This document shows, in pieces, positions 9,238-64,000 of a stretch of 64,000 bases of DNA. Source of the DNA: Boletus sp. NGJ (taxonomy: Eukaryota > Basidiomycota > Agaricomycetes > Boletales > Boletaceae). How positions within the stretch are numbered: the stretch's first letter is position 1; each line of letters opens with the position of its first letter. A program made the position numbers and the translations under genes. The notes under the pieces are model-generated. The model was given only the letters and a program-made list of their open reading frames with translations. It made no database searches and was not told the DNA's origin. The stretch covers positions 47,868-111,867 of the forward strand of contig JAGTXK010000031.1 of the NCBI GenBank assembly GCA_019096195.1, read 5' to 3'.

Positions 9238-10090
9238 GCCCATGTGGTCACAATCTCCTGTAGCATACGGAGAGCCTGCTTGCAAAAGGCCCGATATGTA
9301 CGGATGAGCCCATGGTGGGCCTGAGATATATGAGGCTCATGAGACACGGTCAGGCCTGGCTGAGATGAGCATGTGTAGAATATGGAGGGGCCTGGACATA
9401 GTGAATGAATGAGGTGTGGATAGAAATGGAAGGGCCCTGAGCAGGGTGGGCAGGGCTGAATACCAATGGATATGGGGGCACTGGAAAGGGTAGATAATCC
9501 TGACATCAATGTATGCAGGAGGACTGAGCAGGGTGGGTGTTATCAAGAACCAAATGATATGGGAGGATTGAGGAGGGTGGGAGTGGCTGAATGCCGATGT
9601 ATACAGGGAGACTGAGCAGAATGGGAGTGACCAATACCTGAATGATATGGCGGGACCAAGCAAGGTAGGTATTCCTGACATTGATCGATATGGGGGGACT
9701 GAGCAGGGTGGGAGTGATTGACATCTGAATGATACAGTGGGACCCAGCAGGGTAGGGGTGACCAACAACCAAGTGAGATGGGGGCACCAAGCAGGGTAGG
9801 TATTCCTGACATTGGGGGACCGAGCAGGGTGGGAGTGGCTGAGTACTGATGAATATGGGGGCACTGAGCAGGGTAGGGCTGATCAACACCTGAAGGATAT
9901 GGGGGGACCAAGCAGGGTGGGAGTGGCTGATTACTGATGGATATGGGGGCACCAAGCAGAGTAGGTATTCCTGCCATTCATGGATACAGGGGGACCGAGT
10001 AGGGTACGAGTGACCAACACCTGAATGATACAGGGGACCATATAGGATGGGAGTGGCTGATTGCCCATGGATATGGGGCCACTGAACAGG
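9238..10090. repeat. KDZ-1 left terminal inverted repeat and subterminal array
   Basis: The terminal 60 bp are inverted-repeat homologues of 23365-23428. Inside, from about 9420, runs a degenerate tandem array with period near 45 bp, each unit built round GACTGAGCAGGGTGGGAGTG and a GATATGGGGG segment. The same units occur inverted at about 22600-23240. Arrays like this often bind the transposase. Proline-rich minus-strand frames here are only translations of the array. Confidence 0.85.
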
Positions 10091-10137
10091 GTAGCTATCT
10101 ACATGGATCCTGGCTGCTCACATGGGTCCACACCAGA

Positions 10138-10685
10138 TTAAGACATGAAACATCTGTTTCCATAGGAACAATCTGCCCTCTCATATAACTCAGATAGGAA
10201 AACCTGCAATGCCTTCTCATGGTAGGATGGCATGTCATCCATCCACCATGGACACTGGAATCCATAGGTGGGCATACATGCAGTTGGCTGCCAGTTTGGT
10301 AGAAGCTCCAGCATTTGAGTGATGCCATTGATGGATATGCCTTGAATTCTGTGGATAATGTCCAATTTCAGATTTTCTGGGCTGGCCCCGACTTTGATAA
10401 TTCGGATGCAGGATGGGGTTGGTGGGGGTAATGTTTGCATAGGCACATACAGTACTAAGAAAAAGCTTAAGGTATTCTGCAATTGGACATGGTCAGGACA
10501 CCAATTAGTGATGTGTAAGGTGGGAAGCATACCGATTCCATGGACAAGTTATCATACCAAGTTGCCAGCCATTTGTCTGCTGGAAGTTGAGCAAGATAGG
10601 CCACAGCAACTTCGATCTGGCACTTCTGATACCAGAGCATCATGTGGAGAGTGGTGATGGGCATGTTGTTAGGAAAGGTCTCCAT
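10138..10685 (-). pseudogene. orfC of KDZ-1, 3' part missing
   Basis: Start ATG at 10683-10685 (METFPNN), conserved in KDZ-3 and close to METIENM of KDZ-2. The first exon has LWYQKCQIEVAVAYLAQLP and W(L)ATW. A short GT-AG intron (about 10458-10510, GTATG...GCAG) is at the same place in all three copies. The second exon has FLVLYVPMQTLPPPTPSC, IKVGASPENL, PNWQP and PWWMDDMPSY, ending at 10138. The KDZ-2 copy then adds a coiled-coil exon; here that exon and everything to the terminal array are deleted. No known domain was recognised. It lies just downstream of the transposase on the same strand. Confidence 0.6.
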
Positions 10686-11817
10686 GGCAGAGGGTTAAGG
10701 GAGGGGGGTAAAAATGAATATCAGCTTGTGGAGGTATCCAGTTATTTGTATTCAGTCCACACAGAGCCTGGAATATCCCAGATTCACCAACAATGGTGGA
10801 CACTTTTGGACAAGCCACCCATATTTGTCATAACATGACATCGGCTTAAGCAACTGGGTTACTATCAAACATCTCCAAACATTGTGATGCTCAGCAGGTT
10901 TCCCAATCTGCACAACACTGCTCCTGAAGGTGTGCATAGATGGCCTGCTGGTGGGCAGCATAGCATATGTGTCCTCAGTCATCATTTTTCTGACTGTGGA
11001 CTGCCTGCTCTTCCCATTGATGAGATTTGTGATCAAAGTAATTGATGGCCCATTCAAACTCAGTCATCAGCAGCTCTTCCTCCTCTTTCCACCTATTTAT
11101 TGTGGCCTTTGCATGTAACCAATGTACCCGGTAAACTGCAGATACTATAAGATCAGTAGGAAGATTCAGCCAGATGTGGAGCTTACATTCAGACATCCAG
11201 TCATTCATCTCAGTGTCTCTTGGTATATCCATTGACCAAAACCAGGCCAGCTTGTTTGAGTTCTGGTTGTGGGAATTGGGCTCAGTCACTGTAGTGCTAA
11301 CCTTAGGATCCTTGTCCTCCAGCACCTGATATCTAGCCATCATGTCATCATCAGCCGAAAGCTGTACCATGGCAGATCTGCATCTCTGATATATGGCAAC
11401 ATGCCAGCGGACAACTGCTTTCACAGAATTCACCTTTCCCCATACTCGAGTGGTCTTTGCATGACTCACAGCATGCTCAACTTCCATGTGGAACAACACC
11501 ACCTTGTCTGCCAACCCCAGCCATATCTCATGTAAGGCATCATTTGCTTGCCCAGCACGAAGTTTCAGCTCCTGTTGAATAAGGTGGCCAGCCCCTAGTG
11601 TCATACATTTATCCAGACCCAAGTTAGATGGTAATGGCAGCTTTGCCTCATCGGGCCATTTATCACCGAGGTTGTCAGCTTCATCCCTGCCATTACTCTC
11701 CCCATCTGATATATCTGATGGCACTCTGTTGTCATCTTCATAGCAGATGAAGGTGGATGCTTCAGTGAAAAAGTGTGAAAGTTCAGTCACCAACTGATCA
11801 GCTCAGCGAGCAAGCAC

Positions 11818-12795
11818 TGTTACGCTGGGTAACAATGTGATACATTCCCGTATAATCCCCTGTTGGATTATAGGACTAGCAGGACTTGAGGGAAATATCT
11901 ACCTCCAGAGGCCCAAGGTTTCCTCTGACTGGGGACCAACTGCTAGCTTTACGTAGAGTCCTCTCGTTACCTCTACAACCAATGGCGGAGTCTTGTATTT
12001 ACCACGGTGGTGTGATCCTTCGTGAAGGATGGGCAGACCAGATGCGGAGGCCAGAGACAGTTGCCTTCCGTCAGCTAGTTCTCTGGGCTTACTCAGCCTA
12101 GTGCCGGTGGCAGAGTCCCAGGCTTGCTGGGTCAGTGGCAGAGTCCTGACTGATGATGACCAACCTCTGTTGGTCATTGGAGTTGCTGAAGCTTTAGAAG
12201 CCTGTAACAGCAACGACGGTGCACAAGTGCGAAGTGATGAGAAGGATGATCACAAGTGTGAGGGCAATCACCTCCAGAGCATGGAAGGATGGCTTCTGAG
12301 GTGAAGTGGAACCTCAGCAGGAGAAGCAGTAGATTACACAGGAAGGAGTATAGATCTAGGTTAGAGTTACATGAAGGGCCTGCATCTCCATTTATAGGCC
12401 TTACCCTTCTAGAGCAGGCTCCGTAACGAATATAGTAATCATTAGTTGCAGATGAAAGATTACTATAAATGGATCAAGGCATGAGTTAAAATGGGAAGGT
12501 AGGAATACTAGGCTATGCACAAGAGAGCACAGCCAAGGAGGCAATGTCTATGATCAGGTCAAGAAGGAAGAAGGCATATATCAGATGAAATAAGGGAGGC
12601 AATGTCCATATCAAATGGGTAGGTTCCTGAAAAGGGAGTTATGAATAACTTCCTAGAAAGGAGGTTCCAAATGGGGCAATGCCTGAGTTGGTGTCATGGG
12701 GGAATCCCTGGTCCGAGTTGAAGAATAGGTCGTCCCATAGTCCTATGGGAGGTGAAGGAAGGGGAAAAGATGTACCCCCTTCGATAACCATAACA
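11818..12795 (+). repeat. Solo LTR family B (978 bp)
   Basis: TGTTACGCTGGG at the start, CCATAACA at the end, and a perfect 5-bp target duplication AGCAC (11813-11817 and 12796-12800). The insertion splits the C-terminal half of the KDZ-1 transposase gene. No internal retroelement sequence remains, so this is a recombination product. Confidence 0.93.
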
Positions 12796-13497
12796 AGCAC
12801 CAACTGTTGAAGATCTGTAGCTCTTGATTCCGTCCGCCTCATGTCTTTTCAAAGTGAGAGCTGAGCCTCCTCAAGTTTTAGTCCCTTGGATAGCCATGTT
12901 GCTGCTCCATGGTGCATGCCAGGTGTCTTTGCAACAGCCTCAAGCATTTCAATTTCTACAGCCTTTATGGTGGGTGCTATACTTGTGGAAATATCAATAA
13001 GAGTTCCCTGTGAGTGCATCTCCTCTTCCAACATACCTTTATCTAGCCATACCTCAAATATATCCATTGCCAATGGATCACTGAGTTGTCTCTGCATCGC
13101 CATCTGCTCCTGGCTCAGCCACTATTGTCTTTAAGTGCCTGGAATACCTACATTGAGGTCGTTGAATGTCTTCTGGGCTGATGCCAAGGATTTCCGAGTG
13201 GCCTTCAGCTTTCTGGCCAGACTTCCAGCTGGCAAAGATGAGTATAGGAAGCTTCCATCAATGAATACATCAATGTAGGAACATACACATTCAGATCATT
13301 TTGATGAAATTGGAATCATTTATCTGGAAATCAAGCAGCTCCTGCTGATAGAGGGAGGACATTCCTCACATAGATCCCGACATGATGTTCAAATTAGACC
13401 ACAATGTCTTGATAATCTTGCCATTGACCCTTCCCACCCCAGGAATAAACAAGAGGGCATACCGAGCAAAACATGAGGACTGATGGCTGTTACACTG

Positions 13498-14310
13498 TGT
13501 AACAAGTAACATGTTCCCAAGTAATCAACCTGTTTGATTACTGGACTAGCTGGACTTGAAGTGAGAATTCCTTCCAAGACCCTACTTCCTTGGACTGGGA
13601 ACCAACGGCTAGCTTTAATGTAGAGCCTCCCTTGGGGTTGGAGCCTGTCTGTACGACTGATGGCAAAGTCTCAGACTTTGAGGATGGTGGCACAGTCCGG
13701 TGCAGGTGCAGACCTATCCTATACTGGGGTCAGTGGCGGAGTCCTGGATTTACTATGCTGCCAGTGGTGGAGTCCTGGGCTTAGGTGAACAGACCTCTGT
13801 CTGTGTTGGTGTTGCTGTTGGCTAGAGGCATGAGTGAATGGTGGCAAGGCCACACAAGTGTGAAGTGATGAGAAGGATGATCACAAGCACTATGGTGATC
13901 ACTTCCAGAGTGGGCACAGGCTTCTAAAGTGAAGTGGAACTGGGGAGTTGGTAGATTACATGGGAAATTGTATAGATCTAGGTTGGGTTACATGAAGGGC
14001 AAACACCTGTATAAATAGGCCTTCCCCATTCAGGGCAGGCTTTGTAATATATATGGTAATACTGGAATATTACCATAAGAGATCATATCATCAGTCAAAT
14101 GGAGAGAGTGGAATACTGGGCTGTATGTGAGAGAACACAGCTGAGGAGGTAATGTCTATGATCAGATCAGCGGTGAAATGCATGTAATGGTGAAATAGAA
14201 TAGGCTGTGCCACAGCCATAGTGGTGCATCACTTAGAAAGGGAGTTTGGGGTGGGGTGATGCTTGTGTGGGTGTTGTGGGGGAATCCTGGGTAGTCAGAG
14301 GTGTCGAAGT
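13498..14310 (+). repeat. Truncated LTR family B copy
   Basis: Starts TGTTACACTGTG at 13498 and follows the LTR B consensus until about 14300, where the last 100-odd bp are missing. The sequence then continues straight into transposase coding sequence (GAAGATATTCTGG). The left edge corresponds to position 58775 of KDZ-3 and the right edge to 59826, so the LTR end and about 1.05 kb of the transposase gene were lost together. Confidence 0.82.
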
Positions 14311-15239
14311 TGAAGATATTCTGGATCTGATCCAGAGCATGTGCAGTAATTAATGGTCATGAAATGGATACCGGTCACATCAACCATAGTCAGATAATCC
14401 AACCTGTTCAGCAGTCGAAGATGGGGTGGAATATCTTCCTGGTCAATGTCTTCCCATGCCTCATCATCTAAGGGTACAGGGCCTCCATAATCACTTCAAC
14501 ATTCATGGTCACCACTGGGACAAGGGCCCTCATCATGTCCAAGATAGAGCTCAAAGCCAGTCTGCAGTAGCATTGTTGAAACATTGTCAACCAGGAAAAT
14601 GATTTCCATAACACATCAAGATCAGAGATGAATCTTTGAAGAATGTGCCAGTCCATTGCTGGATGTGGTGAAAAGGATGTCTCTGATGCTGATTCTGGCA
14701 GCACCTGATATGATACAGGGGTTGACTGAAACAGTCTGAACACCGATAGATGCCATCCCAGCGGCATATGCCACACTCTCGGGGATCAAATGGAGCTTCC
14801 ATGTCTAACAAAGCTTGCAAAAATTCTTGTTTGTGAGCAATCCATTCCTGGAGATAATCATTTGACATCTATGGCCATATAGATTAGCATATTCGCCAAA
14901 ATAATGGATGGTTACATTTTTCAGAGGTAATTGGATTGGCTGTATCTCATCAAATTCTACATTAGCTGCACTTTGCCTGCGCCAGATATCACCAGACTAA
15001 TAACTCCAAATGTGCCAAAGAACATATATGTCAGTACTGAAGGTAAACTGAGAACCACATGGCCCAGGCTTGCTCGGGGTAGATTAAACTGATTGTGATG
15101 GAGTCATGCAAATTGCATCCTTGATAGCATCCAATCTGACAAGACTCATCTTGGGCCCTCTTATTGTATTTTTTGTAATCCATGTGGTATGAGTAATTCT
15201 TGCAGGATTAATCTTTCATTTGGAGGGATTCTTCAGCAT

Positions 15240-16051
15240 TCTTAGATGGATGGAAGGCTGGTGGTACAGTAGTATCCAAACATAGATACAGCTCACTTAG
15301 CAAGGTGAGCCATAACATACATCAGTCACACCTCTATTCACCCACATGGTTTTTCAGACACTGTAGTGTTATCTTGCTAGTTCAAGCCAAGCCCATGGAT
15401 GTCAGATCTCTGACCCTGCATCCGCAGCATTACTATGATTAAGTAACCTTGGCTGCCCCATTTGCAAAGGCACAATGTAACATTATTATTTGACCAATCA
15501 ACCTCTGGCCATTTCAAAGCTGCAATTGGAGGACAGGAGGGAGAAATAGAGTAATCAACCCCAGAATGGGGTTGGTCACTGCAGGGAGGCTACCTCCCCC
15601 TCACCTAGTTTTTCTAATCTGGGCATGTTGGATAGACTGTATTATGATCCAAGGGCTTCAGCTATATGGGGCCTGAAGTCATTGCCTTCCCTTATGTAGT
15701 GATGATAGGCAGAACTCAAAATGGAATATGCACAGACACCCCCGCCATCATTGCATGTTGCTTTGGAACTCCATCTGACACCAACTACATATAGAAACGA
15801 GTTGAGTCAGCTTACCCAGCATTGCCAGCATTATATGACCAAGTTGATTACTCGGTAGCCTGGCATTACATCCTATATGTAAGGCCATCTGTCACTTCAG
15901 GGCACTAGGTCAACATATATGCATTTGTTTCTTTTCTCAGGGGTTTTCTCATTTTGGTGTAACCTTGGCTACTCAGCACATATGACAGTTGTAAACCTAA
16001 TATCGGATGAAAGGTGAAGGGTCATACTGTACTCTGAGTCAACCCTCTGCT
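15240..16051. promoter_or_regulatory. Divergent promoter region between KDZ transposase and orfW (KDZ-1)
   Basis: Non-coding stretch between two divergent start codons. It shares blocks with the equivalent region of KDZ-3: GTAACCTTGGCTACTC (15959-15974 here, 61207-61222 there), a related copy GTAACCTTGGCTGCC at 15443, and a variant block GACCAAGTTGATTACTCGG at 15838. No TATA box was assigned. The repeated motif could be a control element for both genes; this is inference from position and conservation. Confidence 0.5.
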
Positions 16052-18756
16052 ATGTCTAACTGCTCACAGGTTTGCGCTGAGACTGAGTATCAAGAAACCA
16101 TCTATAATGTTTCAGAAGATGAGATAGAGAAAGAGGAACCCCAACCTAAGGATGTCTCTGCCAAAAATGAGGCAGGGCCATCTTGCATTGAACTACAGCA
16201 TGAAGGCATCAGCATATCTGATACTGTGCTATCCATTCTCCAAGAAGGATGGCCTTCATGGAAGGCAGCAAGAGGTAAGAAATGACAAACAATCCAGAGG
16301 GCTCTGGTTAGCTGAATATGGTGTCTCAGGGAAAATCTGGCCTTGGAGCATGCTGTGTGGGACTGTAAACTTCAGATGAGAAAGATTTACCATGCCTTGA
16401 AGAATTGATTCCAAACTTCAGAAAGTCATACTGGAAATGAATGCACAAACAGGGACAGATAGGAAAGAAGAAGGATGGCATCACCATTGGTGTAACATGA
16501 ACAGCTCAGTCTGTGATCTGGGAGCAGCGCAAAGATGAAATCAAGAGGACCATAGAGGAATGGTTCAGTGCCTGGCCAGGATCCTTGGCCATGTTTCAGC
16601 ATTACCAGGCCATGCTGGCAGAGGTGATGAAAAGTCGCTCTCCCAGTGAGATGGAGGATGCCGAGTCAACTGCCATGGCATGGACTTTATGAGGTGCCTT
16701 GACTGAGGCAAAGGCACGGTAAGTGTTTTTTAGCTCATAATATTGAAGATGCTGCAGGTTGTACAGGTTTGCAACCTGGGGTGTAGCTTCTGTGATGAAG
16801 CAGTTCACCCAGGAAATGTGGAAGAGGGAAGGGATCCAGATGGCCATACTCACTGGATTCAAGGATGAGAAAGGTGAAATATTCTCCACCCCATAGGTTA
16901 ACTCTAGCCATTTTAGTTCTGCCAGCCATCTGATGGCGAAAAGCTTTGACTTCAACTCAGCCATTGAAGATGGTCCAGCCTTCAAGGGCCTGAACTCCAT
17001 TCAGGGGGAGTGGGATTGATATCTTGGCCAATGTTTTGATCCAGCAAAGAATACAGGGGAGGGCAAAGATGAAGGTGAGGATACAACCCCGGGGAAAGCC
17101 AAAAAGCAAAGGAAGCCCAGGCAGAAACGTGGTGATAATGTAGTGAATATGGTAATCTGGTCAAATGGAACCATCTGGATCCTAGATTTCACTGGCTGTA
17201 GCTGAGCCAATATGTAGAACATTGTCAGGGGCTTTTTCACTTCACACTACCACAAGTCCTCTTCATATCTGACCTTCATGCCAAGATTCAAAGCATTTAG
17301 GCTTGATTTGCAAAAACCCAAAGGTTTCAGCAATTCCAGATGATTTTTTCTTTCCAGATGATCCAAGCCATATGAACACAAGTGATACAAGGCGCTTTCT
17401 TGAATTCATTCACAAGCAACAACGAAATGTTCCAGATGATATCTTCTCATTCCAATCCCAGCTGGATGGGTTGAATCAGCTGCAGAACCCAGCAGAGAGT
17501 GGGGATGAAGATCCAGCCGAGGTAAAGCAACTGCAGAGATCCCAGAATGCAAAGCCAAGACCAGCAGATCAGCCTCAGGCTCAGGACCAGGGACAGGTTG
17601 ATGGTGGTGGCAATCAATTGGATTCTCAGGAGGAACATGGCGTGTGGTCTAACTCTGTGATCAGAAATGGAAAGTGCAGGGAGATATGGAGTCCATCTGT
17701 TCTATATACCAATTGGTCCAACAGTGAAAATGATGTTGGTGAGTTACCTTTGAAGTCTGTTGCATTTAAGATGGGGTCACAGAAACAAGATATGCGGTTA
17801 CCCATGCATTCTGCCCATTCAACTCATGTTACACAATGGAAGGAATGACAGCAAGGCATCCCTGCATGGAAGTTGGTGGTGACAGAATAGTCCAGAGTGA
17901 TGAAGAGCACTGACTGAGACCGATCAAGGTTGGACCTCCAAAAGATGGTAGGCTCCAATATCTCAGTCACATTCCACTATTGATTATTGGTGTCTCTGTG
18001 TGCAGCTATGAAGCAGTCGAGGATAACTCCAAGATCGGAGAAGGACTTATTGCAGCCCCCTCAACAACTGTTCAAGGTTGGACCACCAAGAAAAGGTGGG
18101 CAACATGCTTTTAAATAACAGTTTTCATCTGGGACATCATTGGAGAATTGACATTAAACATTGTCAAATCAGGAACCCAGGAGATCACAGGGCCAACAAA
18201 TGTCCAAGAGACTCAATTCAGGAATGTTCCAGGTGTAGGGAGGTCTGATCGGGAGACTCAGGTCAAAGACACCATCGCACATCAGCTAATTACCAAGGTG
18301 CATGCATTGGCTGCTCATTTCATAGGATAGCCAAAAGGTCATGCTGAAGCAGTTGAATTAGTGGCTGAGATACCAATAGTTTGAAACAATCCTCACCTGA
18401 AGCCCACAATGAAGAGACTGGCCCCAGTCAATGATGGCAGCGATGGTAGGTTTCCGGATTTCTCCTTCAATAGGCCAGGGGTATTTATAACAAATCTAGC
18501 ATTGGCATCCCATCCCAAAAAATTGAAATCGGCAATGAAAATGCCAAAGACTCATCCCAAGGTTGGTATGGCTGACATCAATGGTGGTGCAAAACCAAGG
18601 AATCCAAAGCCGAGATCCCATGCTCGCACTCTGGGAATATCTGTTGAAATGCACACCGAACCTGATAGTACGGTTGCAAACCTGCCATCTGAATCCCATC
18701 TAATTCATCAATTTGCACAAAGGTACAACACTGCATCGATCTGGGCAGGCACGTAA
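16052..18756 (+). pseudogene. orfW of KDZ-1 (WKAARGKK family, function unknown)
   Basis: The start was chosen at ATG 16052 because MS[ND] with the following EY/DY and acidic stretch is shared with KDZ-2 and KDZ-3. Conserved blocks: LQEGWPSWKAARGKK (about 16237-16284); GKKKDGITIG, IWEQRKDEIKR, MFQHYQAMLAEVMK (16460-16640); SFDFNSAIEDG, GEWDWYLGQCF-like, KQRKPRQKRGDN, GTIWILDFTG (16950-17205); DFFFPDDPSHMN and RRFLEFIHKQQ (17340-17420); then a low-complexity basic tail to PRSHARTLG. Related proteins without known function are common in basidiomycetes. A splice donor used in KDZ-3 is mutated here (ATGAG for GTGAG at 16376), and a Trp codon became TGA near 16495. No enzymatic motif was seen. Confidence 0.6.
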
Positions 18757-19095
18757 GGCTCCACTTCCCGGGATGCTGAATAGTCCACACCCAGTCCTCT
18801 GCTGAAAAGGAGATGAGCCAGTTTACAGAATACCTCTTCATTCATACTCTCATTGTGAATGTAGGTTAGTCTGAATCTGGTAAAGTCCTTTTCACATGCA
18901 TATAATACACCATGGCATAGAATAATTGCAGGATGTAAACTAAGTAAAGTCCGAGCCAGTCCCCCTCTCACCTGCTGTCCTGCCTGCCTGGTCCTTGGCC
19001 TTACTTTCTGTTTTGATGGCCACTTTAGACTTACCCAAATATTCTGCATCTTGGATGCTGGCTATTGGTGGTAGCAGGGACGATGGAGGCCAGAG

Positions 19096-20949
19096 TTATG
19101 GCAGTTGACGGTTGAAAAATCCTGTCCCTGTTTGAAAGAGAGGTAGAGGGCCCCAACCCAAGTCTGGGACAGTGCTCAGGCTGCTACCCCAAGATACCGT
19201 AGTGGCTGGTTGATTGTGTGGCAGCAAAACTCGCTGTGGCAAGGGAGTGATCAAATAAGGCACCAAGGATTCTGTAGAGAAAGTGATGGGCAGCAAGTTA
19301 GGACAAAAGATGTCCTGGGTGGCTACCAGGGGAGTGAGGGATGGCATACATTCTGCAGAAGACAGTGTGTGGGGGAAGGGTGAGCCAGGGATAACTGGCT
19401 CAGCAATACATGGGATGAATGCCGCAGTGGGCAGCTCTGAGACTTTCTCCTTAGAACCAGCCTGTGGGGGAAATTGTTCAAATGGGTAGTGCATTCACAT
19501 ACATAGGTGACGAACCATCTTGCCCCTGATTCTGCCAGCCTCATCACAAAGCTTGGCCATGATGTGACTAAACGTTGCCAGACTATCTGCCATAGAATTG
19601 ACCTGGTCCTCAAGCTGCACGTGATTGACTAGAAGCTGCTTGTGGCTGTCCCAAAGTTCCTGGTATGCCTTCAACAGCTTGCCATAGTTAGGAGTGTTTG
19701 GTGTCTCCAGTGCAGTTGATTGTGTGGCTGCTTTCATGAATGGCATCTCTGGTGCAGTTGATTTTGTGGCTGCTTTGGTGAATGGCATCGACTTGGCCAC
19801 CCTTGGTATCACCATGGCCTCGAGAACTATGGAGTAGGTGAATGAATCTGGCAACAATTAAATGCAGAGATTGAACTTATCCTGGACTGGTTTTGAACAC
19901 TTGATCTTCTTTGTCAGCAGGCCAATTTTCAAGTTGGCCACTGGCTCACCTTGTAAAAACTCTGTGGTTTCAAGGATGGGGATGGTATTGCTGTGGGAAA
20001 CAGCTGGGGGAGTGGGACATGCAGGGGAAGCTGGTTAGAATGTTGACCATGGTTGCTGGCTGTGTGATTGACTATGTCCCCACCATTTTTGTGTTGGATC
20101 AGGCAACAGCGATAGGTGAATGTGGGACTGGGACCATTGATGCTTTCTGGCAAGAGAACATTGAACCTTGCATTGGTGGCATTCCAGATAGGTGTGTCTG
20201 GGATTCAGAGTGCAGGTAATACCCCAGTGGTTGCAGGCATCATATGTCTCCATGGTGTTCCCCAATCCTAGGATGTCCACTGCAGGTGATGGCAGGTGAG
20301 ATCTTCCTGCAGAGCGTCCCCTTGACCAGCCACTGGTCGAAGCTTGTGAGACACCACTGTGGTGTCTTGTTTGTCCCTGCAGCTGAACCTCGATATCTGT
20401 GGGATCAATCTCCCAAGCCTTACCATTCCTGACCCCAGATGTCTTTGGCCCCAGCTGAGGGACCTCTGTGTTGCTCTTTTCATCAACTGGCTTTCGGCCT
20501 ATCTCTTCACCCTGGGCTTTGTCAGGAATTTTGGAGGCAGAGACATTTGCTGAGAACCTGGCCACAGCATTCCCAGCATCGACTTGGCCAACCTTGAGCC
20601 ATGGGTGGTCAGGTTGGCTGGTAATATTGTGGGTCAGGATCTTGTGCCAGTCTGGCCAACAGCCATTTGCATAGGCCAGAAGCTCAATGTTGCAGGCGAC
20701 AGCCAGGAGAGGAATGCTTTCGGCCAAACTTGTGCACGCCTGAATCATTTTCTAAAACACGCTTTATTGCCTGGCCAGTTGCATAGAATTACAATCATGT
20801 ACCAGATGCCCTTTAATCTTGGTGATGGCCTGGTGCCATGCATCTCTCTGTGTGGCACCTCGTTCAGTTGTTCTGAGTACCTTGACCTTCAGAATGTTGC
20901 AAATGGCTGCTGTAGTGTCATCAATGATGGATTGAATAGCATTGGGCAT
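19096..20949 (-). pseudogene. orfZ of KDZ-1 (zinc cluster plus coiled coil)
   Basis: Start at 20949 (MPNAIQS), matched by MSSSMQC in KDZ-2. Then AWHQAITKIKGHL, an intron, SIPLLAVACNIELLAYANG and WPDWHKILTHNITSQPDHPW. A Cys-rich block near 20090-20180 (CNHWGITC, then ECHQCKVQCSL) resembles the basidiomycete zinc-cluster pattern; the first Cys of KDZ-2 is Tyr here. Around 19500-19800 is a heptad-rich segment (NYGKLLKAYQELWDSHK, VQLEDQVNSM) typical of a coiled coil. Likely a nuclear DNA-binding or scaffold protein. Transcribed away from orfP with about 330 bp between, and convergent with orfW. Confidence 0.6.
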
Positions 20950-21282
20950 AATGGATTGAAATGAGAGAAAGAATTGAAAATGCAGAAATGGGGCACGGGA
21001 AGCTTTAGTATGAAAATGCTGACCAGAACGTTCTGCAGATTCACTCTCCACCATTATTCTTTGGCAATTACAGCTGATTGCATTATTGTCCATGTTGTCC
21101 ACCATAGCCAGTAAATGCACACTCCACCAGTAACCACAAGATCTCCACATCTAATTTAAAGTTCTTTGCCCAACCTTCCCCAGCATTCTGTCTTTTCTCT
21201 TTTTCAGCACCAATCTGCCATGCAAAAGCAAGTTCGATTCTGGATCCCAGGTAGATGTGACTATGCTTGGTCTAGGGAATAA
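20950..21282. promoter_or_regulatory. Divergent promoter region between orfZ and orfP (KDZ-1)
   Basis: About 330 bp separate the two divergent genes. A spliced upstream exon of orfP could lie here, as the first orfP frame at 21283 begins close by. No box was identified with confidence. Confidence 0.35.
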
Positions 21283-22481: not shown

Positions 22482-22599
22482 GTAACTGTATATAGTGCAT
22501 AAATCATAAGTAGAAGGAGGTTTCCCACCCAAGGTGGACATACTGAATATGCAAAGCTGAGTTGGTGTGCAAGACCACCCCATATACAGCAAGGTCAGA

Positions 22600-23428: not shown

Positions 23429-23499
23429 CCTGAAGACAGCCAAAGGGCAATGGTAGGTGGAATCACATCATCAACAATAGGCACACCAGCCAACCCCAA
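23429..23499. other. 71 bp separating KDZ-1 and KDZ-2, with both target duplications
   Basis: Contains CCTGAAGA (23429-23436, right duplication of KDZ-1) and AACCCCAA (23492-23499, left duplication of KDZ-2). The remaining 55 bp are the only host-like sequence between two elements of 14 and 16 kb. Confidence 0.7.
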
Positions 23500-24765: not shown

Positions 24766-24770
24766 GTATG

Positions 24771-25244: not shown

Positions 25245-25249
25245 GTACG

Positions 25250-53654: not shown

Positions 53655-54600
53655 GTGAGCCTGCTTGCAAAACACCCAACATGTACGGATGATACTGTGA
53701 TGGGCCTGAGATATATGAGATGCGTAAGACACAGCCAGGCCCACCTAACATGCATATACATAGGATACAGAAGGCCCTGGAAAGGGTAACTAGATGAAGG
53801 ATTGATGGATATGAAATAACCCCGGTGGGGTGAGTAAGATTGAGGTCAATACATACGATGGAACTGAGCAGTGTGAGTGTGGCTGACCTCAATGTATATG
53901 ATGAGACCAGGCAGGTTGGGGGTGACCAAGGGCCAATGTATATGACCACACCAAGAAGTATGAGGGTGACTGACCTCAATGTATACGGTGGGACCAAGTA
54001 GGGCAGAGGTGACCAAGTACCAATGTATGTGACCACACTGAGTGGTGTGAGTGTAACTGACCTCAATGGATATGACAAGATTGAGCAGGGCAGAGGTTAC
54101 CTACCGACATATACGAGCACACCAGGCAGGGTGAGCATGACTGATCTCAATGTATACAGTAGGACCAAGCAGGGCAAAGGTGACCAAGTGCCAATGTATA
54201 CAACCACACCGAGAGGTGTGAGTGGGGCTTACCTTGATGGATATGGTGAGGCTGGGCAGGGTGGGGTGACCGAGTCCCGATGTATATGACGGGACCGAGC
54301 AATATGGGGGTGGCTGACCTTGATGCATATGGTGTGACCGAGAAGTGAGGCTGTGACTTACCTTAATGCATTTGACCAGACCAAGCAGTGTGAGCATGGC
54401 TTGCCTCGATGGATACAGCAGGACTGAGCAGGGTGGGGATGACCACTTGCCAATCTATGTGACAGGACCGAGCAGTGTAAGTGTGATTGACCTTGATGCA
54501 TACAATAGGATTGAGCAGGGTGAGTGTGACCTAGTGCAACGGATACAGAAGAGACTGAGCAAGTGCATGCAATGCACCTTGAATATGGGGAGATGCTACA
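53655..54600. repeat. KDZ-3 left subterminal array
   Basis: Degenerate tandem array with units such as GTGTGAGTGTGGCTGACCTC, AATGTATATGACCACACC and GACTGAGCAGGGTGGGGATG, period roughly 50-60 bp. Closer in sequence to the array of KDZ-1 than to that of KDZ-2. Confidence 0.82.
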
Positions 54601-54719: not shown

Positions 54720-56010
54720 TGATCCCTACTTTCCCTGATCCTCTCAGATCTTCCTTTTACCATAAGCCCCTCTGAAATTCCCAACAATTGGGCCATTCCC
54801 TACACCGATAAATTGGCTGCCTATATGGTTTCTAGATTTCAGAATTTCCTGCCACCTGCTGACAACAACAGTTGGCCAAAAATTCCACCTCCATGCATTC
54901 CCGTGCAGACAGTTTGTGAGGTGAACAGGATGGTTGGCATTATTTCAAAAGCATATCAAAACAAGGGTATGGCTCTCACATTTGATGATGCCCCACTCAT
55001 TCCCACCCAGTGATGATCAGCAATGTCAACATCATTCAGCTTGGTAAATGAATCAAAAGGAGGGGACATTCAATGGTACCATCAGACACCGATGATCAGG
55101 AATATACTGCACTCACTGAACCCGTGGTTGTTACCAATCATTCAGGCTATGTCTTACTTTGGTACTTACCCGGTGCAATCAGTCAACCTAATCAAGTGAG
55201 TATGTCCCCAAATGCTGTGACCATCTCACCGACAGATCAATCAAGCAATACATCTGGGAACAGCTACTGCTGCTATCTGGGCCTCTTTCCCACAGCTTGA
55301 CCAGGAATACTCACTGGTGAATCTCAGAGGCAAACTTCCACCCTACAGCAAAGCTGCAAGGGACGATAAACCTATCCCCTGCTTGGTTTCAACAGGGCTG
55401 AAATGTCGGTTTATTTGGCTTCCCCCCTTTTCCATTAACCTGATACCGGTCAACAGGGGGAAAATGGGCCACCCGAGGTCTCAGCATTGCTCAAGGCAAC
55501 CAAAACTGATAGCAGAGCATGTGAATGGCTGCTGGCCATGAAAGAGCATTCAGCTCTTTTGGCAGCATCAGTTGCCATCCTGCATCCTGAAATGTATGAG
55601 TCAGGTTGGGAGGTATTGGTTTGGCTTGGCAACTGGATGGCTGCACAGGAGGACATTGATATGAAGGATGTACTTCCTTTGTGGTCATTGGTTTATAATG
55701 TTGTGTCCATCATGGCCAACCGAGCAAGTCCATTTCACACCAATATTAATGGAAGGCCCCAGTGGTTGGATCTTCTCGTCTCAGTCGACAACTACATCAG
55801 GTTAGATTTTGTGGTCCCAACCATCAAGCATCAGCTTCGGTATGACCCCAGGACAGTAATCGCATTCTTGGGGCAAATGCTCAAGCATGGAGTCGGTTAA
55901 GTTGAAGGGGAGTGGGGGGGTGCTCTTATACTATATGTGGGACAATGTCCATGAATACATGGATGTTTCCTGCTGTAAGTACATGAAATACGAGAGGTGG
56001 GGAGGACAGT
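54720..56010 (+). pseudogene. TET/JBP-like dioxygenase of KDZ-3, active site destroyed
   Basis: Exons: NNWAIPYTDKLAAYMVSRF and VQTVCEVNRMVGIISKAYQN (54780-55013); GHSMVPSDTDDQEYTALTEP and SGYVLLWYLPGAISQPNQV (55020-55197), with a CGA to TGA change ahead of it; NLSPAWFQQG (about 55370-55400); core 55487-55900. The iron motif reads HTN (Asn codon 55742-55744) instead of HTD. The distal His is kept (55886), a TAA follows at 55898, and the 2-oxoglutarate Arg is Trp (TGG 55938). Three hits in the catalytic core make this copy inactive. No start Met is visible in the first exon. A TATATA box lies near 54705. Confidence 0.82.
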
Positions 56011-56176: not shown

Positions 56177-56935
56177 TCACTGACGCTTCCAAAACAGTTT
56201 TTGCAACCGAACGATATCTACCCAAGACTCTATCATCATTGCCTCCATCTTTGCAAGCTTGGCGATATTTTGCTAAAGCTCAGCCAAAATCCTGGTCACC
56301 AGGGCATCCAGCCAAGCATTGTAAGCATTGTCCAATGGAGACTCATGCATTGGCCAATAGCCCTTGTAATGAATTAGTCGACGACTGTGATCCAAGCAAT
56401 CCACATACCTGGAAGAAGGTTTTCACCCTTGCAAAGGAATCAGAAATGAAGAACTGAGATGCCTTGAGGCGGTAGTCCAGAATGTCAGCCACCCACCATG
56501 GGTGCTCGAATCCACAGATGGGAGCACCCGCGCTTGGCCGCCAGCCTGGAAAGAGCTCTGGGGTTCACTTCATGCCATTGAGGTCAATTTCGGAGGAGGC
56601 ACGGATGATGTCCTGTTGGAGACCCTCCAGACTGACGCCGACTTTGATGAATTGGGCACAGGATGGGGTTGGCAGAGTTATGGTGTGCATGGGCACATAT
56701 AGGCCTATGTAAAAGGCCAAGATATTCTGCAAATCAATAATGTCAAAGGGCTGATTTGTGATGTAAAATGGGGAAAACATGCCCATTTCATCATCAGGTT
56801 ATTGTGCCAAGTTGCTAGCCACTGCTTGGCAGGAAGTTGTGCAAGATGTGCCACAGCCACTTCAATCCAGCACTTCTGATATCAAAGCATCATGTGGAGA
56901 GTGGTGACAGGTGTGTTGTTAGAAAATGTTTCCAT
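56177..56935 (-). pseudogene. orfC of KDZ-3
   Basis: ATG at 56933-56935 (METFSNNTPVTTLHMML), then a TGA replacing Trp before YQKCWIEVAVAHLAQLP. The second exon after the shared intron has the ILAFYIGLYVPMHT, PTPSCAQFIKVGVSLEGL block. The last exon ends SPLDNAYNAWLDAL, IESWVDIVRLQKL and TGA at 56177-56179, equivalent to the coiled-coil exon of KDZ-2. The intron donor is GCATG here, GTATG in the other copies. Same strand as and downstream of the KDZ transposase; convergent with TET. Confidence 0.55.
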
Positions 56936-57136
56936 GGCAGGATGATGAGGAATGGGAAATATGATGAAATGGAGGGTGTGGAGAGACTGTGGTTATATAT
57001 TCAGCCCACTCAGACCTTGAAATATTCCAGATTCACCAACAATGTGTGACAGTTTCAGACAGGCTGTGTATGTTTGTCACGATATGATGTCTACTCATAA
57101 AAAGAGGCTACCATCCAATGTCTCCCTAAGTTGTGA

Positions 57137-60100
57137 CTGGCGGCAGCTTTTCCACTCTGCCTAACACTACTCCAGAAGTCAAGATGGCCTGCTGGTGGGC
57201 AGTATAGCATGTTTCTCCTTGGCTGTCCTTCTGCTAACTCTGTGCTGCATGCTCTTCCCATTCCCTTGATTTGTGGTCGAAGCAACCACTGGTCCATCCA
57301 AACTTGGCCATCAGTAGCTCTACCTCCTCTCCCCACCAATCCATTGTGGCTTTTGCACACAACCAATGTACCCAGTAGACTGTAGATATATATAATGTCA
57401 GCAGAAAGGTCTCACGAGAATGTGGAGCTTACATTCAAACATCCAGTCGTTCATCTCAGTGTCCCCCAGTGTATCCATCAACCAGAACCAGGCCAGGTTG
57501 TTGGTGTGATGATTGCGGGAGTTGGGCTTGGTGACCACCATGCTAACCTTAAGATCCTCATCCTTCAACACCTGATATCTGGCCAACATGTCATCCTCAG
57601 CCAAAAGATTTATTATGGCAGATTGGCATTTCCAATATATGGCAACTTGCCAAGCAAGTAAGGCATCCACAGCATTCACCTTTCCCCAAGCCCTGGTTGT
57701 CTTCACATGGCTTGAAGCATGCTGAACATCGGTGCAGAACAACACTGCCTTGTCTACTAATGCAAGCCAGATTTCATGTAAAGCATCATTTGCTTGGCTG
57801 GCACGGAATTTGAGCTCCTGTTTAACCAGGTGCAGGTGGTGAGCACTGATCACCATGCACTTGTCATGACCCAGGTTTGATGGCAATGGCAGCTTTGCCT
57901 GATTAGGTTGTTTAGCTCCAAGATCATTGACCATGTCTTCCTCTCTAATATTACTGTCTCCATCTGATACATCTGATTCCACATTGTCATCATCCTCCAA
58001 CCAAAGGAATGTGGAAGCTTCAGTGAGGAAGTGTGAAATCTCAGCAGCCAGCCGATCAGCTCAGTGAGCAAGGGCCAGCTGTTGATGTTTGGTGGCCCTG
58101 GAAGCCATCCATTTCATATCTTTGCTGAGTGATATCTGTGCCTCCTCAAGTTTTAAACCATTTGCAAGCCATGTTGCAGCTCTGGAGTGGGCTGCCAGTG
58201 TGTGAGTTACACTCTCAAGCATTTCCCTCTCAATGGCCTGTATGGTCAGTGCTGTACTCGGCGATGCATAAGCAACAGTCTGAGCTCTGTGGCAATATGC
58301 CCCATGTTTCAACTCACCTTTGTGTAGCTGCATCTTGAATATATCCATTGCCGATGGATTGCTGATGCGTCTCTCCAAAGCTCTCTGCTCCTTGACCAGC
58401 CACTGCTGTCTTTGAATGTGGGCAACCCCCCCCATCAAGGGCATGGAATGTTGCCCTTGCCGATGCAAACAATTTCTGTGCAGCCTTGAGCTTCCTTGCC
58501 AGAGTTCCAGCTGGTATCAATGAGTACAGGCGGGATAAATAGGGTAAACAACCACTGGGAAACATATACATTCTGATCATTTTGATAAATTGGAATTGTT
58601 CATTTGGAAGTCGAGAAACTCTTGCTGATGGGGGGAGGTCATTCCTCAGGTAGACCCAGACACAATGTTTAAAGTAGACCATAAGGTCTCAATGATCTCA
58701 CCATCGACCCATCCTGCCCCAGGAATGAACAAGGGGGAGTACCAAGCAAAACATGAAGATTGATGTCCATGCATGTGCCACATCCTGATGCCGGGTATGA
58801 TGGCCAGATTCAGCAGCAGCTGAATGAACCTGTTATCACATAGCCAAGCTCGGAGCTTCTTCATATAAGAACAGTTGATGTCATAGAAACTTATGATGCT
58901 TGAAATATTGTCCATATTGTGGGTAAGGGCATTAACAAAAGAGTAGTCCATGTTCACCTGCCTGTGTGGATCTAGGTGATCGGCATATTCATATTCTTCC
59001 TGCATATTGCTTACCTTTCCCCCTTCTGAAAGTCGACCACCGAATGTGGTACAAAACAGCCATGCTGAGCACATGCTGAACTGCCAATCCCAGTGGAATC
59101 CAATTTGCCTCAGCTGGCATTCACCTGGTTCACAGCTTGGTGATTGTTGCAACTTGACCTCTGTTGATGGACATCAGCAATTATAGAAACGGTGTTTCTT
59201 CATTGCATGATTACCTCCAGGGGGTGGTGCATCTCCTTTAGATACTTCTGATAGTTCAGCCGAGTTACCATGAAGCCGAGGCCATCCATCAGCCAGATTT
59301 GGTCATTAGGCTGCCTCTCCCACATGTGTTTGGCCTTGAAGTTTCCATCCATGATAAGAGTTCAGCCATACTTCCAGCTATAGGGATTTTGATCAGATAG
59401 TGCAGTGGTGAGTGAATATCATCACCAACTCAGAAAGCTTGTTGATGGAGACATGCACATTTATCCCTGGTTGAGAACATGCAGGGCAAAAAAGGGCAAG
59501 ATCTCCCTTCAGTGGCTGCTGGGAATGGTGGCCGAAGCCATTCCACTTAAGAAGCTTTAGCAGCCTCCACTATCTGGTGACCCTAAGCAACTCTCGGTAA
59601 TGATTCTGGACCTGTATGAGCAGTTGACATGCAGAAAGCGGGTCAGCAACTTACCGGCACAATGTGAGGAAAGACGTTGGTGGTTATCCTTCAGAGCTTG
59701 CTGTAATAGTTCATTCCAGATGTTCCACACTCCAAATTATCTTGGATGAAGTCATCCAGCAAGGTAAAGGTAAATACAATCCTTGGAATTTGTAGTGTCG
59801 CAGGGTAAAGCTTGCACCACAAAAGTTGAAGATATTCTGGGTCAGAATCGGGGCATGTGCAGTAGTTGATGGTTATGAAATGAATCCCAGTCACATTGAC
59901 CACCGTCAGATAATTTGACCCACTTGGCCGATGAAGGTGTGGAGGAATGTCATCTCGGTTGATGTCTTCCCACGCCTCGTCATCCATGGATGCTGGGTCA
60001 TTAGGTGTATCCAGACATTTCTGGCTGCCCCTCAGACACAGCCCACCCTCATGACTGAGATGGAGCTCAAAGCCGGTCTGTCGCAACATGTTTCAAAATC

Positions 60101-60759
60101 ATCCAAGACTTAGGATTGCTGTACAAAGCTCACCAAGATCAGAGATGAATGGCCAAAGAATGCCCTGGTCCACTACTGAATGCTGATGAAAAGGATGCCT
60201 TTTATGTTGGTCCCTACAGCACCCACTATATAACAGTGGCTGACCGAAACTGTCTGAACACCGATAGATATCATTCTGCTGGCATATACAACATTCTCAG
60301 GGATCAGTGGGAGCTTCCATGTCCAACACAGCTTACAGAAATTCTTCCTTGTGAATCACCCATTCCCAGAGATAATCATTTGAGGTCTAACGTTTGTGTG
60401 GATTAGTGGATTCATCCAAATCAAGGATGGGGTACATTTTTAGGAGGCAATCGGATTGGCCAAATGTCATCTAATTCTCCATTGGCGGCATCTGGCCTTC
60501 ACTGGATATCATCAGAATAGCAGGTTTAAATGTGACAAAGAACATACATGCTGGCACTGAAGGTACACTGAGAGTCAGATGGTCCAGGCTTGCTTGGGGT
60601 GGACTGGACAGATTGGGATGGTGTTGTGGAAGGTGGATCCTTGGTAGCATCCAATCTGACAAGAGTCATCTTAGGCCCCCTTGTGGTATTTTTCATTATC
60701 CAAGTGGCATGTGTAACTCTTCCAGGGTTAATCTTTCACTTGTAGGCACTCTTAGGCAT
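57137..60759 (-). pseudogene. KDZ transposase of KDZ-3
   Basis: ATG at 60757-60759 (MPKSAYK, then TGA, KINPGRVTHATW). Zinc region 60130-60390: DMEAPTDP, CCICQQND, YRCSDS (one Cys changed to Ser), CCRDQHKRHPFHQ. Middle part 59691-60089: DDEAWEDINRDDIPPHLHRP, NYLTVVNVTGIHFITINYC, FTFTLLDDFIQDN. Catalytic part: MDGNFKAKHM (Asp codon 59347-59349), VNMDYSFVNALTHNMDNI, FYDINC and VDGEIIETLW (59152-58646). C-terminal part 58468-57137: ATWLANGLKLEEAQISLSKD, GQANDALHEIWLALVDK, AWFWLMDTLGDTEMNDWM. Near 57150 a frameshift changes the last residues. Best catalytic region of the three, but stops remain. Confidence 0.87.
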
Positions 60760-61317
60760 TCTTAGGATGATGGAAGACAGTACAGCTAGCATGAAAAACA
60801 CAGATCCAACTCACTTTACACCACGAGCCAAAACACAAATCAGTAATGCACATGTACACCTGCATGTGGTTTGTCGGACGCTGTAGTGTCTCATCTCGGC
60901 TAGTCAGAACCAAGTCCATGGATCCCAGAACTTTGATTTCTCCCGCAGCACTTCTGTGATTCGGTGACCTCAGCTATGCCCCACGTATGGATATATTGCG
61001 ATCACAATCACTTCAGCTAATTACATGGATCAAGGAATATGTCTGCCTGGGGGAATTGCCAGTATCATGTAACCAAGTTTGCTGCTTGGTGCCTGGCCCT
61101 ATGCCATATGGTTCATTTTATATGACTTCTCTTGGTGACATTTCGGGTACTTATGGCACCGAGCCCTGGCATATCTTACTCCTCTCAGGAGTATTGCGGT
61201 TATCATGTAACCTTGGCTACTCGGTCTCCAGTAATCATGACATAGAGACATGGTTGTTGTAACACTATCCAATGACAAATGAATGCATTGTGCTGCACTT
61301 TGAGTCTACCCTCTACT
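60760..61317. promoter_or_regulatory. Divergent promoter region between KDZ transposase and orfW (KDZ-3)
   Basis: 558 bp. Contains GTAACCTTGGCTACTC at 61207-61222 and ATGTAACCAAGTTTGCTGC at 61067, matching blocks in the same interval of KDZ-1. Spacing and conservation suggest a shared control element. Confidence 0.5.
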
Positions 61318-63775
61318 ATGTCTGACAACAAGATGGAATATGCCACAACCGACTATCAAGGAACTGTCCAAGATGGCTCACAAGATGACATGGAAGATGA
61401 GGAACCCCAGGCCAAGGATGTCTTAGCTGAAAATGAGGCAGGGCCATCTCAGAATCCAATGCGACATGAGAACCCTAGCATATCTGACAACTCACTGCAC
61501 ATTCTCCAGGAGCAGTGGCCATCATGGAAGGCTGCCAGAGGTAAAAAACGACAAACCATCTGGAGGGCTCTGATACTTCGGATCCGGTGTCTGAGGGAGA
61601 ACCTTACCCTGGAGGATGCGGTGTGGAAGTGCCAAGTTCAGGTGAGAAACGAAATGTTGTTTCTGTCATGAAGATTTGATTCCAGATTTTTCAAAAGGTA
61701 TATGAGAAATGGATGCAAAAACAAGGGCAGACAGGGAAAAAAAAGGATGGCATTGCCCTCGGCAAGACATGGACAGCTTGGTCTGTGATTCGGGAGCAAT
61801 GGAAAGAAGAAATCAAGGGGATGATCAAGGAATGGTTCAGCACGGAGCCAGGATCCTCAGCAATGTTTCAGCATTATTAGATGATGCTATCAGAAGTCAT
61901 GAATGGTCTCTCTCCTGATGAGATCCAGAATGCTGAGTCGACTGCTGCCACATGGAATTCACAGGGTGCCATGACTGAAGCAAAGGCATGGCAAGTGTTT
62001 CTGATTGAATCATCCACCACCTGCTGAAAGTCATATAGGTTTGCAACGAGGGGTGTGGCATCAGTCATGAGGCAGTTCTCTCTGGATATGTGGAAAAAAG
62101 GAGGGATCTGGATGGTCATATTGAGTGGGTTTAAGGATGAGAAAGGGGAGGTGTTCTCAAACCAGTGGATGGACTCTCGGCACTTCAAAATTCCCATAGT
62201 CTGACCAACATAAGCTTTGACTTCAACTCAGCAATCGAACAAGGCCCATCTTTCCAAGGCTTCGACGCAATCCAGAGAGACTGGGATAGGTATCTCAGCA
62301 GTTGCTTTGCTTCTACAGAGGATGAAGTGGAGGCAGATGACGAAGATGAACATTTGGGCCAGGCTAAGGTGAAAAGGTGGAGAAAGCTGAGGCAGAAACG
62401 AGGAGACAATGCAGTGAACATGGTAACTCAATTGGATGGCTCCATCTGGATCCCAGATTTCACTGGGCGAAACTGAGGTGATATACAAAATATGGTCTGA
62501 GGCTTTCTCACCTCACACTACCATATGTCAGCCTTATATCTAACCACCATGCACAACATTAATGATCCCCAGGCTTGATATGCAAAAATAAGAAGGTTTC
62601 AGCCCCTTTCAAAAAGCTTGCTGAGTTCCAGGATGACTTGTTCCAGTCTGAACATCTTCCAGATGGCTTCATCTTTCCTGACAATCCTAGCCATCTAAAG
62701 GCCGATGACACAAAACGATTTCTGGAGTTTATTCAAATCTGACAATGGGATACACCAAATGATATCTTTCATTTCCAATGCTGGTTGGATGGGAAGTATG
62801 AGCTTCAGGACCCAGCAGAGATCTCAGCCAGAAAGGTTAAGGGCGAAGAGGCCCTCTGAGGCTCTGATTGATGAACAGGATAATAGTGGCCAGGATGAAT
62901 TGACCTTGGAGGAAGAAGATTCGGTGCGATACAATTCCAACAAAAGAAATGGGAAGCGTAAGGTGGTCAGGAGCCCATCTGCCCCATATAGTGATTGGTC
63001 AGAGACCAAACAAGAAGCTGGGGAACTTTCTCAGAAAATGGTATCATTTAAGGCGGGCACCTCTACATACGGTATGGCATCAGAAGTGCATTTTGGAGCT
63101 TTCATTTGACTGATTCAGCGAAAGGATTGTCCACAAGAAATTTCCAACTGGAGAGCAGCAGTGACCGAAGGGGCCAGAGCAGGGTGGATGGGCGACTGAG
63201 GCCGATCAACATTGGGACCTCCATAAATGGTAGGCAGTTAGTTGCTTCAGATATCACGTCATTGATGCTGTGGATCTGGATTTGTAGTTGGACAACTGCC
63301 AACCCAGAATCCAAAGGGTGGGTCTCACCATCCACAAGAATGATTCAAAGTTGGACTGCCCAGAAATGCCAAGAACGCTGACCATGCAACTTGGGCGAAT
63401 GCTGTCACCCCAACTAGGCAAATCATTGGCATGCAGGCCTCCGCAGGACAGTTGGATCACAGCACCGAACAAATCCACTCGAGGGATAAGATGCCAATGC
63501 CAAAGGAGCATCCTTTGCTGAAAACAACGATGAAGCGGACTTTTCCAGTTGGTGATGGTGACCAAGGTATATAGCTTGATTTCGCTCCAGATGGACAAGG
63601 CTAATAGATTCAAGATGCACCCTTAGCACCCCCCAAAAAGAAATTGAAGTCGGCATTAAAAAAGCTGAGTACATTGCCACCGGCCAGTCATGTTGGAGCT
63701 GAGGGCAGGCAAAAACCAAGGTCCTGAGCTCGCACCCTGGTGGTATTGGATGAGACAGGGGCCCGAATCCAAGGT
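61318..63775 (+). pseudogene. orfW of KDZ-3 (WKAARGKK family, function unknown)
   Basis: Start ATG 61318 (MSDNKMEYATTDYQGTVQD). Exon 1: QEQWPSWKAARGKKRQTIWR, RCLRENLTLEDAVWKCQVQ; GT-AG intron 61642-61685; then KVYEKWMQKQGQTGKKKDG, VIREQWKEEIKGMIKEWF, LSEVMNGLSPDEIQNAEST (61686-61980); an intron whose donor is GC; MRQFSLDMWKKGGIWMVIL; SFDFNSAIEQGPSFQGFDAI, DRYLSSCF, LRQKRGDNAVNMV (62210-62420); FKKLAEFQDDLF, GFIFPDNPSHLKADDTKR, FLEFIQ (62610-62740); acidic/basic tail with PKKKLKSALKK near 63640. It is the least damaged copy in its first third. Function unknown; divergent from the transposase. Confidence 0.62.
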
Positions 63776-64000
63776 ATATGAATATTCATCCTTTTTAAAT
63801 TGCATCTGACGCCAGCATTTCATCAAAAGGCACAACTCTGTATTGATCAGGAAGGGCGCACAAGGCTTCACAGCCACCTGATGCTGATGCATCAACACCT
63901 GGAACTCAGCAGCCCAGAAAATAGCCCTATATACAGTGGCTCAAAAAACTGTCCGCATATTTGGTCATTTTTCACTAAACATGTTATTCCCCAATAACCC
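63776..64000. other. Window edge, possible orfW 3' end
   Basis: Short frames only. By analogy with KDZ-1 and KDZ-2 the next gene, orfZ on the minus strand, should follow beyond the window. Confidence 0.35.

Follow-up and report, generated by a model that had tools for sequence, protein, structure and literature searches.

Large KDZ transposons of a Boletus genome carry a fixed six-gene block between inward-pointing terminal repeat arrays

Three copies of one six-gene block lie in a 64,000-nucleotide stretch of DNA from Boletus sp. NGJ (the window), which makes up the final 64,000 of the 111,867 bases of contig JAGTXK010000031.1 (contig 37). The block comprises orfP, orfZ, orfW, a KDZ transposase gene, orfC and a gene for a predicted TET/JBP dioxygenase (TET), and together these genes fill a long DNA transposon, as target site duplications (TSDs) and imperfect inverted termini in copies 1 and 2 demonstrate. 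The recurrence of the block greatly exceeds chance, since 13 complete cassettes of the host genome keep this order and these strands. The family probably consists of large KDZ DNA transposons of about 13-16 kb, lengthened in places by inserts, that maintain six proteins together. The best explanation, and a reasonably probable one, combines a KDZ transposase with a six-protein set in which companion proteins bind arrays at the element ends and TET is directed to the element itself.

A sequence-only reading of the window had proposed that the three copies share one gene order, P, Z, W, KDZ, C, TET, with fixed relative strands, and self-comparison bore this out. Self-alignment of the window returned three collinear blocks, with elements 1 and 3 in the same orientation and element 2 inverted. 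Gene spans, set by tblastn using conservation-guided gene models, reproduced the divergent pairs P/Z and W/KDZ, placed Z/W and C/TET as convergent pairs and showed KDZ and C to follow each other in tandem; in the orientation of element 3, the arrangement is TET+, C-, KDZ-, W+, Z-, P+. Copy contents were likewise as claimed, with all six genes in element 2, no TET in element 1, and TET, C, KDZ and W in element 3 before the contig ends. The existence of three elements stood, but their borders were corrected to 9236-23427 (element 1), 23498-39923 (element 2) and 52654 to beyond 64000 (element 3). The KDZ family PF18758 scored over its cut-off in all three, at 13309-13497 (minus strand), 33725-34497 (plus) and 58589-58966 (minus). 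Furthermore, the window copies are not recent duplicates, because each falls in a different lineage of an 11-copy KDZ exon tree.

The ends of the elements are marked by the core AGCCTGCTTGCAAAA. Outward of this core, element 1 starts with GAGCCCATGTGG and ends in ..CATTATGTG between CCCTGAA duplications (9229-9235 and 23428-23434). Element 2 starts with AAGCCTGTG and ends in ..CATTATGTG between CAACCCC duplications (23491-23497 and 39924-39930), of which the right copy carries less weight because it falls on a run of C. Among the five two-ended copies considered, namely elements 1 and 2 and the copies C33, C101 and C56 elsewhere in the genome, the 7-bp TSD is exact in four (CACCATT in C33 and TCCATAT in C101) and agrees at 5/7 bases in C56 (GTTGATG/GTTGACA). 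All five carry CACAT at one end and GAGCC or AAGCC at the other. The core matches at both ends form imperfect terminal inverted repeats (TIRs), which continue into inverted array DNA; in element 2, 23531-24433 gives an 87% inverted match to 39889-38910. At the left end of element 3, an insert of 963 bp bounded by TGTTA..TAACA (52692-53654), which duplicated GTGAG, interrupts the terminus CACATAATGCAG. The element begins at 52654, about 1 kb left of the visible array; a start at 53617 was ruled out, the true terminus lying beyond the insert. A second terminus-like sequence (CACATAATGCAGTCACC..AGCCTGCTTGCAAA, 38860-38905) was also observed inside the right array of element 2, oriented opposite to that end, and is perhaps a trace of end rearrangement.

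All three window copies are damaged, in KDZ (element 1), orfZ (element 2) and TET (element 3). In element 1, which is decayed, the left terminus (GAGCCCATGTGG) and its inward GCAGGGTG array (9236-10100, plus) are followed by orfC (10171-10688, minus), KDZ (11185-15329, minus), orfW (16076-17797, plus), orfZ (20044-20949, minus), orfP (21442-22482, plus) and the right array and terminus (CACATAATGCAG, minus strand, 22661-23427); a TET search of the host genome gave no match inside this element. Its KDZ gene is broken by two inserts, one resembling a solo long terminal repeat (LTR) at 11818-12795 (TGTTA..TAACA, 5-bp TSD AGCAC) and a relative of 6808-7650 at 13488-14306, with approximate borders and no visible TSD, where about 1 kb of the gene is missing. 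Element 2 runs from its left terminus and array (23498-24500, plus), an inverted repeat of the right end, through orfP (25246-25979, minus), orfZ (26761-28074, plus; interrupted at about 27018-27507 by a solo-LTR-like repeat), orfW (30051-31864, minus), KDZ (32360-35634, plus), orfC (36091-36838, plus) and TET (36909-38185, minus) to the right array and terminus (38910-39923, minus). Element 3 has one end only and no TSD, and shows its left array (53655-54600, plus), TET (54771-56009, plus), orfC (56192-56938, minus), KDZ (57431-60865, minus) and orfW (61318-63076, plus).

Searches of the 32.8-Mb host genome with each of the six genes, followed by merging of loci by hand, yielded 56 KDZ, 36 TET, 29 C, 35 Z, 35 P and at least 28 W loci, the orfW counts being lower bounds. 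Linking loci that kept the expected order and strand, with 8-kb steps and a W-Z gap of up to 18 kb, recovered 13 complete cassettes (element 2 among them; one spans a 16-kb gap), three with five genes (element 1, C101 and C27, the last without KDZ), six with four (including element 3), seven with three and 16 with two. Inward TIR cores flank nine of the 13 complete cassettes as well as element 1 and C101, over spans of 13.0-27.9 kb. A TET locus was found within 8 kb of 27/29 C loci, and a KDZ locus within the same distance of 21/29 C loci and, among the matches listed, 23/28 W loci. KDZ is less often close to Z (15/35 loci within 8 kb, 22/35 within 20 kb) and to P (7/35 and 21/35), because Z and P occupy the far end of the cassette and many partial copies are end fragments. 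Viewed from the transposase, W lies within 20 kb of 24/56 KDZ loci, and none is listed for the other 32. Decay or truncation of a cassette accounts for some of these W-less loci (C102 and C42 retain C and TET), and others belong to a distant KDZ type. This second type, without a cassette, was observed on contigs 49, 81, 106, 103, 75 and others; four of eight compared loci align with the KDZ of the cassette (25-30% identity across 93-127 residues), whereas the other four gave no match. Partial copies holding only P-Z (C50, C35, C39, C106 and C71) or only TET-C (C41, C129 and C137) were also noted. A TIR core adjoins all of them except C137, and they are deletion derivatives or fragments.

Both ends of the elements carry arrays of ACCGAGCAGGGTG-like units that point inward with a 43.5-bp phase. 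In 11 ends, taken as 1.4 kb each, GCAGGGTG occurs 53 times inward and never outward, against an expectation of 0.94 on average and at most 4 in 200 Markov simulations. The 43.5-bp period (R 0.964) was obtained from the spacing of looser cores, measured over 44 gaps. Across the genome, the spaced pair AGCAGGGTN33-38AGCAGGGT was found 84 times, versus none in the reversed control. With the closest TET, C or P gene at up to 6 kb as reference, 75/84 pairs point toward it and six away, three having no such gene; five of the six away-pointing pairs lie on contig 17, at the meeting of two fragments. The TIR core, with one mismatch allowed, occurs 67 times and is again absent from the reversed control, with 50 cores pointing toward such a gene, four pointing away and 13 lacking one.

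The composition of these arrays may reflect cytosine methylation. The dinucleotide before the second core of the spaced pair is CG in 21, TG in 35, CA in 24, CC in 3 and TA in 1 of the 84 pairs, and the 77 distinct strings show the same spectrum (19, 31, 23, 3 and 1, respectively). CG, TG and CA together account for 80/84 dinucleotides beside the second core versus 21% in the array unit at large, and further columns of this kind occur at positions 24 and 33 of the 43-bp units (9 distinct) and positions 18 and 34 of the 44-bp units (13 distinct). Such variation would be expected from methylated CpG decaying on either strand. Across whole elements, the observed/expected ratio of CpG is 0.18, 0.24 and 0.27 in elements 1, 2 and 3, versus 0.90 and 0.96 in two arbitrary stretches of large contigs, and the TpG/CpA ratio is 1.43-1.46, versus 1.15 and 1.12. 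From sequence alone, we infer that the elements are methylated by the host.

The six genes evolve under apparent constraint. Between families, the ratio of nonsynonymous to synonymous substitution rates (dN/dS), estimated per exon, is 0.13-0.28 for the six genes, one reading of orfP apart; in its ATG frame, orfP gives 0.10-0.22. By these estimates, purifying selection on the companions is similar in degree to that on the transposase, and because of this match the companions appear to be working parts, none of them idle cargo. The orfZ product shows the cysteine spacing CX2CX6CX7CX2CX6C in 5/8 copies and in its homologue P0003, the pattern being lost in elements 1 and 2 and C101; shuffled windows contained it 0.05 times on average (20 shuffles). 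Zn2Cys6 clusters have the consensus spacing CX2CX6CX5-12CX2CX6-8C, and by this spacing orfZ may be read as a Zn2Cys6-like cluster. No Pfam profile agrees, and no Zn2Cys6-type family was matched at E 1 by P0003 or by the orfZ of C101, in which the motif itself is broken. For orfW, a partial homologue (P0001, Imleria badia) has 31% identity over 56% of a composite query and is collinear with real copies. PDB searches with W, Z and C returned nothing useful. The orfP product has a proline-rich start and a conserved tail, and matches no Pfam family. orfC is probably a separate gene behind KDZ. Its reading as a KDZ tail is unlikely, given that in ten copies the KDZ and orfC matches lie 185-248 bp apart with at least one KDZ-frame stop between them in each; a stop stands at the same aligned place in 9/10 copies (element 3 is damaged there). 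A fusion by splicing may yet exist; the gene models of C33 and C133c join the two across the gap in this way. The orfC homologues P0004-P0008, like P0001 and P0003, are single proteins without genomic context. TET scored 34.1 against Pfam Tet_JBP, just below the cut-off of 34.9, and its best PDB match was CcTET (7vpn and 8jkk, E 2e-17). The element 2 protein contains HTDVHGQPQWLD with HxD and keeps the positions of CcTET Gly331 and Asp337, which Kojima (2025; PMC12730594) names for CcTET and which, with HxD, mark the protein as AG-type. In the element 3 protein, HTN replaces HxD (within 55730-55783), and this copy is predicted to be inactive.

The sequence-only reading had taken the block for a working multi-protein transposition or chromatin system rather than chance cargo. 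The working-system part is upheld by an order and strand pattern fixed in the complete cassettes and by purifying selection on six genes, but the block is not a free-standing chromatin system beside KDZ genes; it makes up the gene set of a single Kyakuja-type transposon that has termini of its own. In a 2014 PNAS article, Iyer et al. are said to have linked KDZ to TET and to extra proteins, including a divergent HMG-type one. According to Kojima (2025; PMC12730594), Kyakuja transposons have 7-bp TSDs and 5'-CA..TG-3' termini without TIRs, and TET-bearing members are known in Agaricomycetes. The present elements share with them the KDZ transposase, the 7-bp TSD, an AG-type TET and one CA terminus. 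They differ in the other terminus, which is GA or AA, so that the CA..TG pattern is absent from 5/5 copies; in their imperfect TIRs, which reach 96% over 494 bp between the ends of element 2; and in four further conserved genes, the words HMG, accessory and other genes being absent from the portion of that text available. The elements are therefore labelled Kyakuja-type rather than proven Kyakuja, since the TSD and TET type fit whereas the termini and TIRs do not. Additional genes in KDZ elements and conserved gene order are thus not new in themselves, the latter being reported by Kojima for other TET-bearing transposons, namely IS3EU with an alpha-kinase and some hAT7 families (PMC12730594). 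A literature search that left most subscription-journal papers outside its scope returned no account of the four genes or of arrays like these. What is new here are the inward terminal arrays, their 43.5-bp phase and the CG/TG/CA dinucleotide beside the core.

In the proposed mechanism, the KDZ transposase would cut at the GAGCC/CACAT termini, and at least one small companion would bind the phased, CpG-containing ACCGAGCAGGGTG motif at both ends. The binder would most likely be orfZ, with its Zn2Cys6-like spacing, or the helical orfW; perhaps one of these two binds the array, but the choice is a guess. The bound array would then recruit the TET dioxygenase encoded by the element to these host-methylated ends, thereby keeping them readable for transcription and synapsis, and orfC and orfP may be further parts of the complex. 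In the simplest reading, the transposon would be autonomous, with proteins of its own that mark its ends and hold them open. Array binding and TET recruitment are suggested by analogy with VANC and TNPA. In Arabidopsis VANDAL elements, a short motif forms tandem arrays in one orientation and an element-encoded protein, VANC, brings about methylation loss (PMC5735166, 2017). Common to both systems would be an element-encoded protein, putative in our case, that counters the element's own methylation. In contrast, the arrays here are terminal and inverted and a predicted 5-methylcytosine oxidase is encoded, whereas no dioxygenase is named for VANC in the available text (PMC5735166). Nothing suggests relatedness to VANC proteins, the sequences being uncompared. 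Similarly, En/Spm (CACTA) elements with TNPA combine subterminal repeat arrays with a DNA-binding protein, putative in our case, apart from the transposase; they differ in transposase family and in the length of the TSD, which has 3 bases in a soybean element, and TET is unmentioned in the accessible text (PMC2613891). A self-addressed demethylase, in which the element's binder reads phased CpG-bearing arrays and delivers its own TET as a targeted-eraser counterpart of VANC, is a tentative reading, somewhat less likely than not. It bears on the way in which transposon-borne TET enzymes reach their targets; for these enzymes Kojima (2025; PMC12730594) infers an anti-silencing role while stating that their function lacks experimental validation. 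With a fixed, selected gene set and oriented CpG-bearing arrays, targeted demethylation becomes testable using small proteins and short DNA, and the system is a possible natural sequence-guided demethylation tool.

A plain multi-gene transposon, in which arrays and small proteins served only the synapsis and cutting of very long ends and TET was captured separately and acts independently of the arrays, is a somewhat unlikely alternative. It would accord with En/Spm, where TNPA-bound subterminal repeats are cis-determinants of excision (PMC2613891), with the view that TET genes seem passively moved between transposon families (Kojima, 2025; PMC12730594), and with the retention of both ends and arrays by element 1 despite its lack of TET. 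The close association of orfC loci with TET, a constraint on TET equal to that on KDZ, and array dinucleotides that vary like decaying methylated CpG argue against it. That the four companions are recently captured host genes, also functional in the host, is very improbable: a few orfZ, orfP and orfW loci do lie outside cassettes (for example C7:202.7 kb, C89:1014.3 kb and C81:1737.2 kb, as search matches alone) and might include an intact host gene, but Z occurs within 8 kb of 34/35 P loci and many partial copies adjoin a TIR core. Least credible of all, at the margin of plausibility, is chance cargo or segmental duplication, that is, a host segment copied together with a KDZ gene. On contig 133, two of the complete cassettes stand next to each other in opposite orientation, at about 31.7-48.5 kb and 56.7-73.5 kb, with 97.4% identity over 16.8 kb; they may be a single insertion duplicated, and duplication is possible for some copies. 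However, exact 7-bp TSDs and common termini at unrelated sites already contradict such an origin for the family, the same block occurs in at least three diverged lineages, and reversed controls gave no matches to the TIR-core and array patterns.

Several observations weigh against the favoured model of array-bound companions and a self-directed TET. CpG depletion extends to other repeat-rich DNA (0.37 at 42300-45000; 0.44, 0.30 and 0.63 in L009, L010 and L011), and CpG at the ends is below that of the interior in 5/10 cases and above it in 5/10. Few exact motifs remain at the ends of element 2, with AGCAGGG once at each and GCAGGGTG three and four times. Subterminal repeats can serve synapsis alone, independently of methylation. 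Pfam searches with W, Z, P and C gave no family above its threshold; orfW in particular, considered as a candidate HMG-box protein, had no Pfam match at E 1 and no PDB match, and its helical structural model is of low confidence (predicted local distance difference test score 42.6). The orfP exons of C33 gave dN/dS of 0.49-0.64, with 0.47-0.49 antisense, in a frame chosen by stop count beside a second open frame. Finally, element 1 retains its two ends despite lacking TET, and C101 does so despite lacking C and holding no more than a TET fragment, so that a copy can persist with less than the full gene set. These incomplete copies may reflect either gene loss after insertion or movement in trans.

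The window contains further repeats around the elements. A young Ty3/Gypsy-type LTR element with a chromodomain occupies 1-5681 together with L009:9273-9755, its LTRs being 97% identical; the CpG observed/expected ratio over 1-5200 is 0.73, far less depleted than in the KDZ elements. Repeats resembling solo LTRs, about 0.8-0.98 kb long and in most cases bounded by TGTTA..TAACA, lie at 6739-7650 and 40035-40949 in addition to the three inserts in elements 1 and 3 described above, and 5-bp duplications accompany three of them (AGCAC, CTACC and GTGAG). Two repeats of about 490 bp in element 2 (24764-25244 and 27018-27507) match the LTR at 5199-5686 at 79-80% and probably represent older solo LTRs akin to the retroelement that opens the window. 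A coding region on the minus strand at 42351-44938 contains a CHAT domain and tandem repeats of about 135 bp, with an 84% relative in L009. Left of element 1, degenerate short tandem repeats (CATAGTA, ATTAGA and CTATGGAA) span 8034-9068.

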